A stretch of DNA of 64,000 nucleotides from Cenococcum geophilum 1.58 (lineage: Eukaryota; Ascomycota; Dothideomycetes; Gloniales; Gloniaceae): the NCBI GenBank assembly GCA_001692895.1, contig KV748182.1, forward strand, positions 434,001 through 498,000, read 5' to 3'. Made by a program: the position numbers and the translations under genes. The first letter of the stretch is position 1. The number at the start of each line of letters is the position of its first letter. Positions 6,450-55,502 of the stretch are shown piece after piece. The notes under the pieces were generated by a model that was not told where the DNA came from, did not search any database, and was given only the letters and a program-made list of their open reading frames with translations.

Positions 6450-8340
6450 ACTCTTAAGGCCCCTATAAACTTCCCTTACTAGTAAAGCAATGGTGTAAGG
6501 TTATTTAAGCTCTATTAGGTCCTTCTTCTTAAGCTATAGTATCTACTAGTATAGAACCTTAGCCTTTATAAACTTCCTTTACTAATAAAGAGATATTATA
6601 AGGTTATTTATACTTATAAGCGTATTTAAGTACTCTTTTCTAAGTACCTTCTCCCTAAGCTGCAGAGTCTGCTAGTAGAGATTTAGCTTCTATAAACTTC
6701 CCTTACTAATAGAGAGATAATATAAAGTTATTTATACTCCTAAGCGTATCTAGGTACTCTTTCCTAAGCACCTTCTTTTTAAGCTATAAAGTCTACCAGT
6801 ATAGAGACTCGGATTTTATAAACTTCCCTTACTAATAAAGAGATAATATAAGGTTATTTATACTCGCGAGGGTATCTAGGTACTCTTTCCTAAGTACTTT
6901 CTCTCTAAGCTATAGCGCCTGCCGGTTTAGGGCCTTAGCCTCTATAAACTTCTATTACTAGTAGAGTAGTAATATAAGGCTTATTACGCTCGCGAGGGTA
7001 TCTAGGTGCTCTTTCCCAAGTGCTTTCTCCCTAAGCTGCAGCGCCTGCCGGTGTAGGGCCTCGGCCTTTACGAACTTCCCTTGCTGGTAGAGAGATGATG
7101 CAAGGTTATTTATACTCCCGAGCGTGTCTAGGTGCTCTTTCCCGAGCACCTTCTCCTTAAGCTGCAGCGTCTGTCGGTCTAGGGCCTCGGCCTCTGCGAA
7201 CTTCCCTTGCAAACGGAGCGATAATGCAAGGTTATTTATACTCGCGAGGGTGTCTAGGTGCTCTTTCCCGAGTACTTTCTCCCTAAGCTGCAGCGTCTGC
7301 CGGTGTAGGGCCTTGGCCTCTATAAACTTCCCTTGCAGGTAGAGAGATAATGCAAGGTTATTTATGCTCGTGAGCGTGTCTGGGTGCTTTTCCCCGAGCA
7401 CCTTCTCCTTAAGCTGCAGCGTCTGCCGGTCTAGGGCCTCGGCCTCTATAAACTTCCCTTGCGAACGGAGCGATGATGCAAGGCCCATCATGCTTGCGAG
7501 CGTGTCTGGGTGCTCCTTCCCGAGCACCTTCTCCTTAAGCTGCAGCGCCTGCCGGTCTAGGGCCTCGGCCTCTACGAACTTCCCTTGCTGGTGGAGTGGT
7601 GATGCAAGGCTCATCATGCTCGCGAGGGTGTCTGGGTGCTCTTCCCCGAGTACTTTCTCCCTGAGCTGCAGCGCCTGCCGGTGTAGGGCCTCAGCCTCTA
7701 CGAACTTCCCTTGCTGGTAGAGAGATGATGCAAGGTTATTTATGCTCCCGAGCGTGTCTGGGTGCTCTTTCCCGAGCACCTTCCCCTTAAGCTGCAGCGC
7801 CTGCCGGCCTAGGGCCTCGGCCTCTACGAACTTCCCTTGATGGTTAAGCGATATTGTAAGGCCCATCATGCTCGCGAGTGTGTCTGGGTGCTCTTTCCCG
7901 AGCACCTTCTCCTTAAGCTGCAGCGTCTGCCGGTGTAGGGCCTCGGCCTCTGCGGGCCTCCCTTGCGAACGGAGCGATGGATGCAAGGCCCATCATGCTC
8001 GCAAGCGTGTCTGGGTGCTCTTTCCCGAGCACCCTCTCCTTAAGCTGTAGCGTCTGTTGGTATATGCCCTCGCCTCCACGAGCCTTCCCTTGCTGGTTAG
8101 AGTGATGATGCAAGGCCCATCATGCTCGCAAGCGTGTCTGGGTGCTCTTTCCCGAGCACCTTCTCCTTAAGCTGCAGCGTCTGTTGGTGTAGGACCTCGG
8201 CCTCTACGAACTTCCCTTGCTGGCAGAGCGATGATGCAACGCCCATTATGATCCCGAGCGTGTCTGGGTGCTCCTTCCCGAGCACCTTCTCCTTAAGCTG
8301 CAGCGTCTGCCGGCCTAGCAGCTCGGCTTTTGAATAGTTG
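6450..8340 (-). repeat. TPR-coding tandem array, 15 units of 126 bp (42 aa), part of the NLR gene
   Basis: A fixed word (cttaag-ctgcag or decayed forms) recurs at 8292, 8166, 8039, 7912, 7786, 7660, 7534, 7408, 7282, 7156, 7030, 6904, 6778, 6652 and 6526. Spacing is 126 bp except for two 127-bp steps (8166 to 8039 and 8039 to 7912). Each unit encodes a tetratricopeptide pair of the fungal NLR type, with E-A-E-A-L, L-Q-L-K-E-K-V-L-G and E-H-P-D-T-L. Units from 8340 to about 7030 are nearly identical and GC-normal. Units below about 6960 carry many C-to-T/G-to-A changes and cannot be read through. The open part 6958-7986 covers about eight units. Near-identity implies recent unit amplification or conversion. 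Confidence 0.9.
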
Positions 8341-29120: not shown

Positions 29121-30190
29121 TATGGATGGGCTCGAACGTCGCATGTTCTTTGCTGCTGCAGCTTAGCTATTGCAGATGAATAACGCTAACGCGCTTGCTG
29201 CCGCTATAGCTGCCTCTAATAAAGCTCAACTAGTGTGGCTATGGAAGCCCTTAAAGAGACTTAGTCCTATATAAAAGCTTATTAACGTATAGGCGCCAGA
29301 AGAGGAAGAAGGCCTAAATAATAAGTATTTTAAGTTCTTTACCCGCTTTACTAAAGTAGAGGTTAAAGAGCTTACACGGCAGATTAATCTACCTACTAAG
29401 TTCGCTATTAATCTACGTTTTGGCTGGCTAAACGCATTAACAAGCTTACCTAAAGAATTACTCTTTGTCTTCCTCTGGCGCTCTGCCCATCCTATATTGT
29501 TTAGATATATTATAATATTCTTTAGAATAAGCCAGCCGTGGCTATTGCGGGTTTAGAACGGCGTTTTAGATAATATAATAAAGAGGTAGGGTAAAAGGAT
29601 TAAGATGGATAGGTAGTTAATATTGCCTAAATAAATAAATTTGTATACTAAGGTAATCAGAAGCTAACTTAGTAAGGCTTCTATCTTTAGCTTTATTAAC
29701 AGAATAGAGGTTTAAATCTGCTGTCCTGGTAAGGAAGAATAAACTCTATTTTAGAGTAGCTATAAGAAATAATACTTACTAGGATACCTCGCGATTATCC
29801 TACCTAACGGTTTATTTAGCGCGGTCTTTACTAGTCTTCCTTTTACTGGCGGTAATACTACGCTAGCTATTAAAGTCAGCCTTAGTGCGAAGCTATAAGA
29901 TCTACTAGGATATCTGCTAGAAGGCTAAGAGCGCTTTATATATAGGGATGCTGCTTTTAGGTCTTAGTAGGGAGTATTAGGACCGTATAAAAAGCCTAAA
30001 GGAGGAATAATTATACTAAGTTAGCAAGCTCTTAATTAGTGGCTTTTAATTAGGCGGATTATTGTTAAACATAGCTTTAGTAGAGTAAAATCGCTCTTTA
30101 AACTGCTTACCCATTTTTAAGTCTTAGAGGTTAGTTTATACCCTATTAGCTACTATATACCGGCTTTTTTATTTCTTTATAACTGTTAAA
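29121..30190 (+). pseudogene. Harbinger transposase (DDE_Tnp_4 type), inactivated
   Basis: Starts at ATG 29121 ('MDGLERRMFFAAAAQLLQMN' when decayed codons are ignored). Conceptual pieces show the fungal Harbinger pattern: 'NNKYFKFFTRFTKVEVKEL', 'ILPNGLFSAVFTSLPFTGGN' near 29800-29860 (the usual I-x-P-N-G-L-F block), 'FIYRDAAF' near 29936-29960 (the G/R-D-x-A-Y/F acidic site), and 'VKHSFSRVKSLFKLL' near 30066-30110. Several in-frame stops at RIP-type positions. Confidence 0.75.
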
Positions 30191-51200: not shown

Positions 51201-52434
51201 GAGGTCTAATATACGTATTAATCCAGCAGGTCCGTAAAATATCCTAAGTATACTTTATAGATATATTTTGTAACCAACAGGCGGCTTAGTAGCGGGTTAC
51301 CTCGTTAATTATATATAATACTAGGCTGCCGTTAATATATATAATGTCTACATATACTAAGTGGTTAAAGTTAAGGTCCTTATAAAGGGTGAACTTAAAT
51401 TAGCCTAGGGAACGTCCGTATTTCTGGTAAAAGGAGTAGTATTTAGTTAGGTAATTAACTGCCTTCTTATTAATATTGTTGTGTCTAGAGTGTTTAAGGA
51501 CTCTATATAGCTTTTTGGCTAATAGGTAGCCAAAACGGTAGTATAGATAGTGGATCTCTATACTAGTAAGGTAGCACGGGTTATAGTTAAAAGATTCCTA
51601 AATATAGGTCTATAAAGTCTCTCCCTATATAAGAAACGGGTGTCTAAATCGTTATATAATTAGTAGGGTAATATACTTACTTCCTAGGGCAGTTGCGGGG
51701 CCGATTAAGGTATCCGTAATATTATTATAGTAAACCTATAACCTATCTATATCCGCAAGGCAAAGTAAAAAAGAGGTGTCTGCTTTTACTATATAGAAGT
51801 TAACTAGGCTAATTAGGGTCTTAACTATAACTAATTTAATTAATATAGTTAAGCTAATGCCGAATTGGACGTTTATAGCCCCAGTTTATATAATATTAAT
51901 GTCCGTATTATTATTTGCGGTGGTCCTATATATAAGGTATTGTCCATAGCCTATAGTAGACTTCTTAGAGGCGCCTATGTTAATTATAACACCATAAAAT
52001 TCCTTAGGGGTATAGCGTTCTGTAGTAATATATACAAATAGGTCCTGCTTATAATCTATAATATCTATAATAGGGGTACTTACGGAATAGTTTTTGGGTA
52101 TAACTAAGTATATAAAGGAACGGTCGGCTAATATAATTGTAATATTAAAGGCTTAGCTATCCGTAAAAGGTCTAAAAGTAGTTAGAAATATCTCTAGGGT
52201 CTCCTATTCCTAGTTATTTAGGTTAAAGTTAATTATAAGGGCTTCTATTAACTTATTAGGGGGCTTCTCTTCTTTCTCTCTTTTATATTCTAAGATAAAC
52301 TAGCTAATCTATTTATTAAATCTCTTCTTAGACCTATTACGTTTTTCCTAGGTATACCTTATAGACTAATATCCTTCCTTACTACATATAAAGTATTTCT
52401 GGCTTGTTTATCTATAGGGGTATACTTTTATATA

Positions 52435-52700
52435 CATCAGGAAATTTTTTTTTGGGCACGTTGTTGCAAACGAAAATCGGGGTCTGCAAAACCTGCGTAA
52501 GTCGCAAATTTGGCAATTTGCGGCGATTTGTAGCAATTTGCTACAAATACATAGGCTACCTATGCACGCGCCTGCCTTATCTATGTGTTTGTAGCAAATT
52601 GCTGCAAATCGCTATAAATTACCAAAATTGCGACTTACGCAGGTTTTGCAGACCCCAATTTTCGCTTGCAACAATATGCCTAAAAAAAAATTTCCTAATG
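52435..52700. repeat. 266-bp foldback at left end of the cassette
   Basis: Arms 52435-52549 and 52586-52700 are near-exact inverse complements (gacttacgcaggttttgcag in one arm, its complement in the other) around a loop of about 36 bp. Each arm starts with the TIR, so this alone could be a complete MITE whose right TIR was passed over when the arrays were added. Confidence 0.85.
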
Positions 52701-53605
52701 CAGAGGCTCTGCATGAGGCTCTATACAAAGCTCTGCATGCACGAAGCTCTACACGGAAGCTCTACACGAAGCTCTACACGAAGCTTTGCACGAGGCTTTA
52801 CACGAGGGCTCTTCACAAAACTCTGTGCGTACAGAGGCTCTGCCACGAGGCTCTACACAAAGTTCTACACGAATTCGTGGCACGAAGCTCTGCACGAAGC
52901 TCTAACGAAGCTCTACACGAAGCTCTACACGAAGCTCTACACGAAGCTCTACACGAAGCTCTACACGAAGCTCTACACGAAGCTTTGCACGAGGCTCTAT
53001 ACGAAGCCTCTACACGAAGCTCTACACGAAGCTTTGCACGATGCTCTACACGAAGCTTTGCACGATGCTCTACACGAAGCTCTACGTACAGAGGCTCTAC
53101 ACAAAGCTCTACACGGAAGCTCTGCACGAAGCTTTACACGAAGCTTTACACGAGGCTCTACACGAGGCTCTACACAAAGCTCTGGGTACAGAGGCTCTGC
53201 ACGAGGCTCTACACGAAGCTCTATACGAAGCTCTGCACGAAGCTCTACACAAAGCTCTACACGAAGCTCTACACGAAGCTCTACACGAAGCTCTACACGA
53301 AGCTCTACACGAAGCTCTACACGAAGCTCTACACGAAGCTCTTACGTACAGAGGCTCTGCACGAAGCTCTACACAAAAGCTCTGCACAAAGCTCTATATA
53401 AAAGCTCTACACGAAGCTCTGCATAAAGCTCTACGGAAGCTCTACACAAAGCTCTACATATAGAGGCTCTGCACGAGGCTCTGCGCGAAGCTCTACACGA
53501 GGCCCTCTGCGCGAAGCTCTACACGAGGCTCTACGCGAAGCTCTACACGAGGCTCTGCGCGAAGCTCTGCATACGGAGGCTTTACACGAAGCTCTACACA
53601 AAGCC
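52701..53605 (+). repeat. 12-bp minisatellite (gctctacacgaa)n, about 75 units
   Basis: Units are mostly exact with C/T variants (gctttgcacgag, gctctgcacgaa) and irregular interruptions 'gtacagaggctctgc' at about 53085, 53190 and 53345 that suggest a higher-order period. Five of six frames lack stops over long runs because of the unit's composition. I do not regard these frames as genes. Confidence 0.9.
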
Positions 53606-53759
53606 TTTGTGTGTGGGCGCGCGACACACTACTATCGGGTCCCCGCTATATTCCCGATAGCCTCTACACGTGCCTCTGCCAAGTATACCCCCCTATATAC
53701 ACCTAGGTAGCCACCCTCATTTTTTACCCTTCCTTACATCCTCCCTACCTAGGAAGACA

Positions 53760-54175
53760 CCAGAACGACAGCCAGCAGACAAACCGTTGCCGGAGCCAGA
53801 CGACCGTCGCCAGAGCTAGACGACCGTCAGAGCCAGACGACCGTCGTCAGAGCCAGACGACTGTCGCCGGAGCCAGATATAAACCGTCGCGCCCAGAAGC
53901 TGGAGACGACCGTCGCCCGGAGCCAGATAACCGTCCGCTAGAGCTAGACGACCCCGTCGTCAGAGCTAGACGACCGTCGTCAGAGCTAGACGGCCGTCGC
54001 CGGAGCTAGATGACCGTCGCCAGAGCTAGACAACCGTCAGCCAGACGACCGTCGTTAGAGCTAGACGACCGTCGCCGGAGCCAGATAACCGTCGCCAGAG
54101 CTAGACGACGTTAGAGCCAGACGACCGTCGTTATCGCCACACGACCGTCGCCAGAGCCACACGACAACCGTTCGA
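53760..54175 (+). repeat. Minisatellite based on ccagacgaccgtcg with agag spacer
   Basis: Roughly 18-bp units (ccagacgaccgtcgccagag type), about 20 copies, with losses and substitutions. 'cgaccgtcg' inside each unit is nearly self-complementary. Confidence 0.85.
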
Positions 54176-54235
54176 CGACCAGCCAGCGAATACGATAAAC
54201 GATTCGATTGATCGATCAAATCAAGGTGACATAGA

Positions 54236-54307
54236 CAGGTAGCACAGACAGGTAGGCACAGATAGGTAGGTATAGGCGGGTAGGTATAGACAGACAGACA
54301 GGTAGGT

Positions 54308-54342
<35 letters not shown>

Positions 54343-54355
54343 TAGGCAGGTAGGT

Positions 54356-54402
<47 letters not shown>

Positions 54403-54435
54403 TAGGCAGGCAGGTAGGCAGGCAGGTAAGTAGGC
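54236..54435 (+). repeat. (GGCA/GGTA)n tetranucleotide tract
   Basis: Runs of ggca with ggta variants, preceded by 'gacagacaggtag' words. Simple repeat. Confidence 0.95.
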
Positions 54436-54599
54436 AGATAATTTAGAGCCTCCGCGAGAGGCTTCCCCTTAACGCCTAAAGTAGATAGCTCTACATTTTA
54501 TATAGTTATAATATAAATATATTTAAAAGTATACTACAGAAATCTATGGAAATATGTGATAATTTGGTTATTATATAATATAATTATAATTTATATAGT

Positions 54600-54742
54600 T
54601 ACAATTTATACAGTTTTTACAATTCGTACAATTCGTACAATTCGTACAATTCGTATAATTCGTACAATTCGTACAATTCGTACAATTCGTACAATTCGTA
54701 CAATTCGTATAGTTTTTACAATTCGTACAATTCGTACAGTTT
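54600..54742 (+). repeat. 9-bp minisatellite (acaattcgt)n, about 14 units
   Basis: Exact or near-exact acaattcgt units with variants acagttttt and ataattcgt. The open frame 54556-54810 is a product of this repeat. Confidence 0.95.
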
Positions 54743-55502
54743 GCGCACTATTTATTTATAGGGTAGCATTTTGCCGTAATTTGCTATTAGGTGCTGTAAA
54801 TTTGTTATAAAACGCGCAAATTACTATTAGGGTGCTGCAAACTTGTTGCAAAACGTGCGTTTTACGCAAATTGCTATTAACCATATCCACCTGCCGCAAC
54901 CGTACGGTTTGTGGCAATTTGCCGCAAACCGCAACAACGAGCCCCAAAAAAAATTTCCTGATGTAGGGGTTGCTGCAGGGGTTATAGGTAGGACTTGGTT
55001 AGTATAGGTGCTACTAGCAGTAGCGGCGGTCTGTAAAGTAGACGTCTAAGTTTATTTATAGATATTAAATATCTATAATAAAGGCTTAAGTGCTACTTAG
55101 TAGGTTTAAGACTTTATAGGTTATAATAGAGGAGTATAGATTATTAATAAGGCCAGCTAAGGTATCTATAGGCTTATAGTAGGTGTATTTATAGGGCTCT
55201 ACTTCCTAGTAGGCCGTAATAAGTTTATTATATAGGAAGTCGTCTGTTTAAAGCTTAGCGTTAAGGCCGTACTATAGGTGCCAGAGGTCTTTAATAAGAA
55301 TTTGCAGGCACTCTATAGTCGATTTTTTAGTGTTTTTATTAATTACGGTCCGTAGCTTAGTCGCATTCCATTAGGTAAGGATATTACGCCTATATTCTAG
55401 TCCTTTAAAGTAGTTATAGGTAGCTTTATATAGCTTATTAAAGGGGACACTAAGGGGGTTGCTCTTAAGGTTAGTGTAGTAGTAGTTAAGTACTAGGCCG
55501 CG

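Follow-up and report, generated by a model that had tools for sequence, protein, structure and literature searches.

Non-autonomous DNA transposons that contain tandem arrays are already known (PMC4079207, PMC9659126), and the comparisons made here draw on parts of the cited accounts. The foldback element Tetris of Drosophila virilis is non-autonomous, has no apparent coding capacity and carries tandem repeats that vary in number, and a relative, DAIBAM, has part of Tetris in common (PMC4079207). The elements miDNA4, Xmix (Xenopus) and (GTCY)n (Lepidoptera) are non-autonomous and carry or give rise to tandem repeats (PMC9659126), and in Pseudomonas, by the title of the report, TIMEs give rise to mosaic non-autonomous transposons (PMC4133298). 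The PlavakaB lineage, described in Agaricomycotina, has termini CATCA..TGATG and makes target duplications of 2 or 3 bp (PMC12730594). An element that we analysed in Cenococcum geophilum 1.58 has the PlavakaB termini and 2-bp duplications and sits in a genome with abundant Plavaka transposases but, unlike PlavakaB as described there, it lacks a transposase, contains a left foldback and four arrays, and belongs to a family in which some copies end in CGTCA..TGACG. Tetris differs from it in having repeats of ~220 bp within long terminal inverted repeats (TIRs) and duplications of 8–10 bp; for miDNA4, Xmix and (GTCY)n the account names one repeat per element, whereas here four arrays stand in a fixed order; and the mosaic transposons of Pseudomonas are bacterial and Tn3-derived. 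The original prediction recognised no described family of this build. Transposons with internal arrays do exist (Tetris, miDNA4, Xmix), and what stands of that claim is that the open-licence literature, covered largely through listings, yielded no four-array build, no single core with two sets of ends and no family-wide contrast in repeat-induced point mutation (RIP).

The window, the whole stretch of 64,000 nucleotides of contig KV748182.1 that we analysed, contains at 52435–54963 a single TIR-bounded element, which comprises a foldback and four tandem arrays and has no evident gene (Table 1). The left TIR, CATCAGGAAATTTTTTTTTGGGC, starts at 52435, its inverted counterpart extends to 54963, and the element is flanked by TA on either side. 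A 15-base TIR pattern matched both ends of the element exactly and the inner end of the foldback (52686–52700) with one mismatch, three matches in the window (≤2 mismatches) being in themselves not unusual (shuffle mean 1.7; 25 of 100 shuffles reach 3). The foldback, folded as single-stranded DNA over 52435–52701, reached −110.5 kcal/mol (z −21.75), and none of 200 shuffles was as good. Its outer end resembles the right end of the element over ~33 bp, and the foldback does not extend beyond the leftmost 266 bp, so that the long inverted repeats at both ends that characterise FB/Tetris-type elements are absent. Tandem Repeats Finder (TRF) gave 69.7 copies of the 12-bp unit (52740–53604), 19.1 copies with a 20-bp period (53783–54165), 36.8 copies in the CAGG/GGCA tract (54291–54437) and 15.4 copies of the 9-bp unit TACAATTCG (54600–54738). 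TIR positions, folding and TRF confirm the single unit with foldback and four arrays that had been predicted, while the 12-bp array, estimated at about 75 units, and the array taken to be of ~18 bp are real but have the copy number and period given above.

Table 1. Modules of the element and its target duplication, in window positions
Feature	Positions	Strand	Basis or remark
Left 2-bp target duplication (TA)	52433..52434	.	Flanking sequence, empty site
FB1, foldback of two inverted arms	52435..52700	+	Outer TIR CATCAGG is the element's left end; inner end CCTAATG
A12, 12-bp array, consensus CACGAAGCTCTA	52701..53604	+	Begins at FB1 junction CAGAGGCTCTGCA
S1, unique spacer of shared core	53605..53782	+	36-base piece recurs in genome; F1 and F2 consensus equal over 145 bp
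A20, array of 20-bp period	53783..54165	+	TRF
S2, unique spacer of shared core	54166..54240	+	F1 and F2 consensus equal over 76 bp
GGCA/CAGG tract including irregular start	54241..54437	+	F1 and F2 diverge at its right end
S3, spacer with F1 ends, not seen with F2 ends	54438..54599	+	Fetched copies
A9, 9-bp array (TACAATTCG)	54600..54738	+	TRF
RT1, right subterminal region and TIR (CCTGATG end)	54739..54963	+	Genome copies
Right 2-bp target duplication (TA)	54964..54965	.	Flanking sequence

The element overlaps 22 stop-to-stop frames of at least 60 aa, and 10 of these were scanned against Pfam. Seven matched no family at E 0.01, and two, both in the 12-bp array, had matches only below the curated cut-offs; the long frames in this array exist because its repeat unit has no stops. 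The remaining frame, on the minus strand of the GGCA tract, scored 23.5 bits (cut-off 22.9) for C_tripleX, a 17-position cysteine repeat; we take this match for low complexity. The 10 scanned frames of the 22 thus gave no convincing Pfam match, in agreement with the predicted lack of a gene.

Joining the flanks without the element gave a sequence that was uninterrupted in all 40 places scored (of 770 first-look candidates), aligning over 398–400 of 400 bases with 89–93% identity. This empty site shows the whole unit to be a single insertion. The surrounding repeat had been called a Copia gag; the insertion is indeed clean, but the gag was not confirmed, as the two read-through flank stretches scanned had no Pfam family and gag/CCHC-like stretches were seen by eye only. 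A third flank stretch, further right, matched a Tf2-1-like SH3 domain.

The element recurs across the 177-Mb genome. A 17-base TIR pattern had 461 exact matches, compared with 3 for the reversed control, and a 36-base piece of S1 had 183 (≤3 mismatches) and its control none; the foldback arms matched 457 times (≤3 mismatches; control 0), a count that does not settle the number of solo foldbacks. Searches with the left end, the right end, S1 and S3 each had 40 candidates scored out of 364 to 1316 first-look candidates. Modules may be missing and insertions may be nested or adjacent, but otherwise the 68 fetched stretches (~52 places) have a single module order, as do 8 further copies. The copies measure 1.3–3.2 kb, or 6.0 kb where another element is nested inside; high copy number and the lack of an evident gene are what is expected of a miniature inverted-repeat transposable element (MITE), but this length is not short. 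At one place (G000:C6:2979356-2986922), two cassettes with the ends of the window copy lie in the same orientation ~2 kb apart.

What differs between copies is the length of the arrays. The gap from foldback to S1, which holds A12, ranges from 122 to 1428 bp in 29 copies, that of A20 from 100 to 956 bp in 55 stretches, that of the GGCA tract from 102 to 310 bp in 46 and that of A9 from absent to 543 bp in 52, the last including 4 negative values where the array is absent or the anchors overlap. A common remainder modulo 9 is found in 37 of the 52 A9 gaps, so that units are gained and lost whole; A12 gaps showed no clustering modulo 12. The arrays and the three short unique spacers would be inherited within the element, and array length would then shift by gain or loss of units.

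To count target duplications, we started from 36 single-stretch copies, 7 of them without a left end found, and so had 29 single and 5 paired rows; with L007/L064 left out, its right end being outside the fetched piece, 33 copies were counted. The 2-bp flanks were identical in 30 and unequal in 3. The 30 duplications comprise eight different dinucleotides (TA 19, AT 3, AG 3, and one each of GA, CC, AA, GT and CG), that is, 2 bp of variable sequence with a bias towards TA. The TA duplication originally noted therefore holds for the window copy, but it is one form of a variable family duplication. With the same build at many places and each having its own duplication, the view of a single mobile cassette moving as one piece is borne out.

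The other course that had been envisaged, a foldback MITE landing in a repeat and its arrays expanding in place, finds a parallel in a solo foldback derivative of 170 bp (L070) and in the variation of array length between copies. At this locus it is contradicted by the empty site, which marks the whole unit as one insertion, and elsewhere the arrays recur in the same order in copies with their own duplications; we give it next to no credence. Copies with the same TIRs and no arrays had been proposed as a check, and L070 excepted there were none among those fetched, the arrays being present even in the diverged subfamilies. Copies with different arrays had been proposed as well: the arrays do vary in length and, unexpectedly, the ends vary too.

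The core of the element (12-bp array, S1, 20-bp array, S2 and GGCA tract) also lies between a second set of ends, CGTCAGG..CCTGACG, and we refer to copies with the ends of the window copy as F1 and to those with the second ends as F2. In L048, L052 and L044, the three of the 68 stretches that lack F1 ends, the F2 ends consist of a foldback (FB2) and a right region (R2), with the TIR CGTCAGGAAAAAATTTACCAGCAT, which matched 436 times in the genome (≤2 mismatches; control 0). Among 100 S1 places listed of the 183, 52 were within 2 kb of F1 markers, 32 within 2 kb of F2 markers, 16 near neither and none near both, the markers including copies classified by fetching. A third set of ends was sought in 20 fetched core copies, of which 10 were F1 and 9 F2 and one (L073) had none of the modules. 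Six F2 right ends without a core listed nearby were also fetched. The core was present in five of them, and in the remaining one (L123) R2 and the GGCA tract were the only modules seen, next to RIPped sequence that resembles a retrotransposon. One F2-ended core copy (G000:C7:501257-503224) is found ~12 kb to the right of the cassette, 3 kb past the end of the window.

Counting each place once, the S1 consensus of F1 (48 places) and that of F2 (26 places) differ at 0 of 145 bases and the S2 consensus (54 and 14 places) at 0 of 76. Within F1, S1 has changed: from F1a, F1c (4 copies) differs by 6 transitions, 1 transversion and 7 gap columns, and F1d (2 copies) by 6 transitions and 39 gap columns. 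The ends of F1c and F1d nevertheless still align with those of F1a, with 88–89% identity on the left and 73% on the right (z 14–23; for F1c, 89% with z 20.8 and 73% with z 13.9), whereas F1 and F2 ends have 47–60% identity (z 0.6–6.7). The cores thus pair F1a with F2 and the ends pair F1a with F1c and F1d, and we read this as an exchange in which core and ends have recombined, as far as the sequences of the copies tell.

In a scheme with no exchange, F1 and F2 would be sisters: their ends would have diverged rapidly, and the core would have been kept by selection or homogenised by conversion. Both ends do start with C[A/G]TCAGGA, both types follow the plan of foldback, core and right end, and their right ends have kept a weak similarity (z up to 6.7). 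Moreover, the right ends of F1a and F1b are by the same measure only 57% identical (z 11.5); rapid change of right ends thus occurs within F1 as well, and the gap between the end types is one of degree. We think descent as sisters unlikely since S1 has changed within F1, in F1c and F1d, where the ends still align, yet is the same in F1a and F2.

The exchange that we prefer could perhaps have arisen during gap repair, if the template was switched at the terminal motif common to both types on the left and in the GGCA tract on the right. RIP-type changes aside, the F2 copies L048 and L044/L071 have the left junction of F1 (the foldback end followed by CAGAGGCTCTGCA); in L052 and L120, also F2, the inner arm of the foldback is truncated and the junction is not shared. 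S1 is less variable in F2, and this holds as well for copies that were found through their ends (2.40 transitions per copy in 5 F2 copies compared with 8.30 in 20 F1 copies). For this reason transfer from F1 to F2 appears the likelier direction, though not an established one. Tetris and DAIBAM, as presented in the part of the report drawn on here, have ends in common, whereas F1 and F2 have the interior in common (PMC4079207). One core with two sets of ends would mean that cargo and ends of non-autonomous transposons are exchangeable, and families named by ends and families named by interiors therefore need not agree.

The ends also bear on the enzyme. The 2-bp flanks agree with the duplications of PlavakaB, the F1 ends CATCAGG..CCTGATG contain its termini, and the F2 ends CGTCA..TGACG are one base off. 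A transposase of the Plavaka group (PlavakaB; a CACTA/EnSpm-related clade) is on these grounds the most likely mobilising enzyme, and we consider it probable that the element belongs to an abundant family of non-autonomous DNA transposons that lacks an evident gene and is most likely moved in trans by PlavakaB. The genome has 123 Plavaka matches over the cut-off, some being two pieces of one gene, and those listed have internal stops. None of the 123 is within 6 kb of 200 listed TIR places (100 of the 461 and 100 of the 436, less than a quarter of the TIR matches), and at these places no transposase with the family's TIRs and no transposase match inside an element was found. Autonomous copies may have mutated ends; Plavaka-bearing elements with ends CATCAGGAAATTTTTT.. 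or CGTCAGGAAAAAATTT.. would favour Plavaka as the enzyme.

Several candidates for an autonomous partner were rejected. A 6-kb TIR pair (L069) proved to be a cassette with a nested hAT-like element flanked by the 8-bp duplication GTATTTGT. Eight TIR1 pairs without a listed core were all cassettes when fetched, with S1 recognisable in seven and not in L113. The transposase next to the core of L044 is that of a pogo-like element of 1830 bp nested there, which has TIRs of its own and a TA duplication.

Two other superfamilies were considered. In some lineages of the PIF/Harbinger-ISL2EU type (PHIS) the duplications are of 2 bp. The genome has 66 DDE_Tnp_4 matches, two of them within 6 kb of a listed TIR (1.5 and 5.6 kb), and Harbinger-related transposons are described with duplications of 0, 2 or 3 bp (PMC12730594). 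An origin of this type is nonetheless improbable in our judgement, as both nearby matches lie on the outer side of the TIR and not inside an element and the termini CATCA..TGATG are those of PlavakaB in the sections of the report drawn on (PMC12730594). A MITE-type element of Tc1/mariner (pogo/Fot1), with TA as obligatory target, would suit the window copy and the 19 of 30 matched duplications that are TA, and the F2 copy L044 contains a nested pogo-like element whose duplication is TA. That element has other TIRs, however, and 11 of the 30 matched duplications are not TA, which makes a TA-specific transposase unlikely; we regard this origin as very improbable.

RIP has length and identity thresholds, as known from work on Neurospora. 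The 3-kb flanks of the window copy are RIP-like (TA/AT 1.88 and 1.93; (CA+TG)/(AC+GT) 0.36 and 0.48), compared with a TA/AT of 1.13 and a (CA+TG)/(AC+GT) of 1.19 for its unique modules taken together. The same contrast was seen across the family: among 28 copies tried, 9 were dropped for having less than 200 bp of flank, and of the remaining 19 all had RIP-like flanks and none RIP-like ends (median TA/AT 1.73 and (CA+TG)/(AC+GT) 0.38 in flanks, 1.00 and 1.66 in ends). The arrays themselves had been said to be barely RIPped compared with their neighbours; the contrast holds for unique modules and ends, but RIP indices inside arrays are set by the unit sequence, are uninformative and were dropped. 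The S1 copies contain 175 C>T changes, 109 of them in CA and 35 in CG, and 123 G>A changes, 59 in TG and 56 in CG, which indicates that RIP or deamination has touched the copies, lightly.

Of the two explanations first offered, late growth and escape from RIP, the data favour escape, without proving it. We hypothesise that the array build is the cause: no unique block is longer than ~270 bp, and the intervening arrays differ in length between copies, through which the element would escape RIP. The copies might instead be un-RIPped because they are young or were inserted after RIP ceased, which we hold possible but on balance doubtful. The S1 of the window copy (53634–53780) has no substitution relative to the consensus and F2 copies have only 1.23 transitions per 144 sites, as youth would predict. 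F1 copies found by their right ends, however, average 8.3 transitions in S1 (20 copies), and together with the RIP-type changes this argues that the copies did encounter RIP, with no more than light effect. In L069, moreover, the nested hAT-like element is RIPped (1.68 and 0.44 without its own array) and the host copy is not (1.19 and 0.94), so that the host copy had probably inserted before RIP acted, with the reservation that this is one locus and that the hAT-like element might have been RIPped before moving.

To go beyond escape and regard the array-spaced build as a design for evading RIP, with the core taken up by second ends because it evades RIP and so being a parasite of two end systems, is a tentative step that we rather lean against. 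On this view each unique block would be too short for RIP to recognise, and hundreds of copies could survive with light mutation although the genome is capable of RIP. If the array build does shield from RIP, a repeat family can thrive although the defence mutates the repeats next to it, and the family would offer a direct test of what RIP needs for recognising repeats.

Other elements were seen within the copies and elsewhere in the window. The RIPped hAT-like element of L069 (2224–5908) is nested within the loop of an F1 foldback and carries a 23-bp array of its own. The 1830-bp element in the F2 12-bp array (joined coordinates 2195–4024 of L071/L044) has a pogo-like N-terminal frame and is little RIPped (TA/AT 1.21, ratio 1.01); the hAT and pogo labels were given by eye from duplications and reading frames. 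At window positions 29713–30180 (+) there is a RIPped match to a DDE_Tnp_4 (Harbinger-type) transposase (E 8.9e-6) with 11 stops, and 6562–8318 is a direct array with a period of 126 bp, or 42 residues, and 13.9 copies, a candidate repeat-protein gene.
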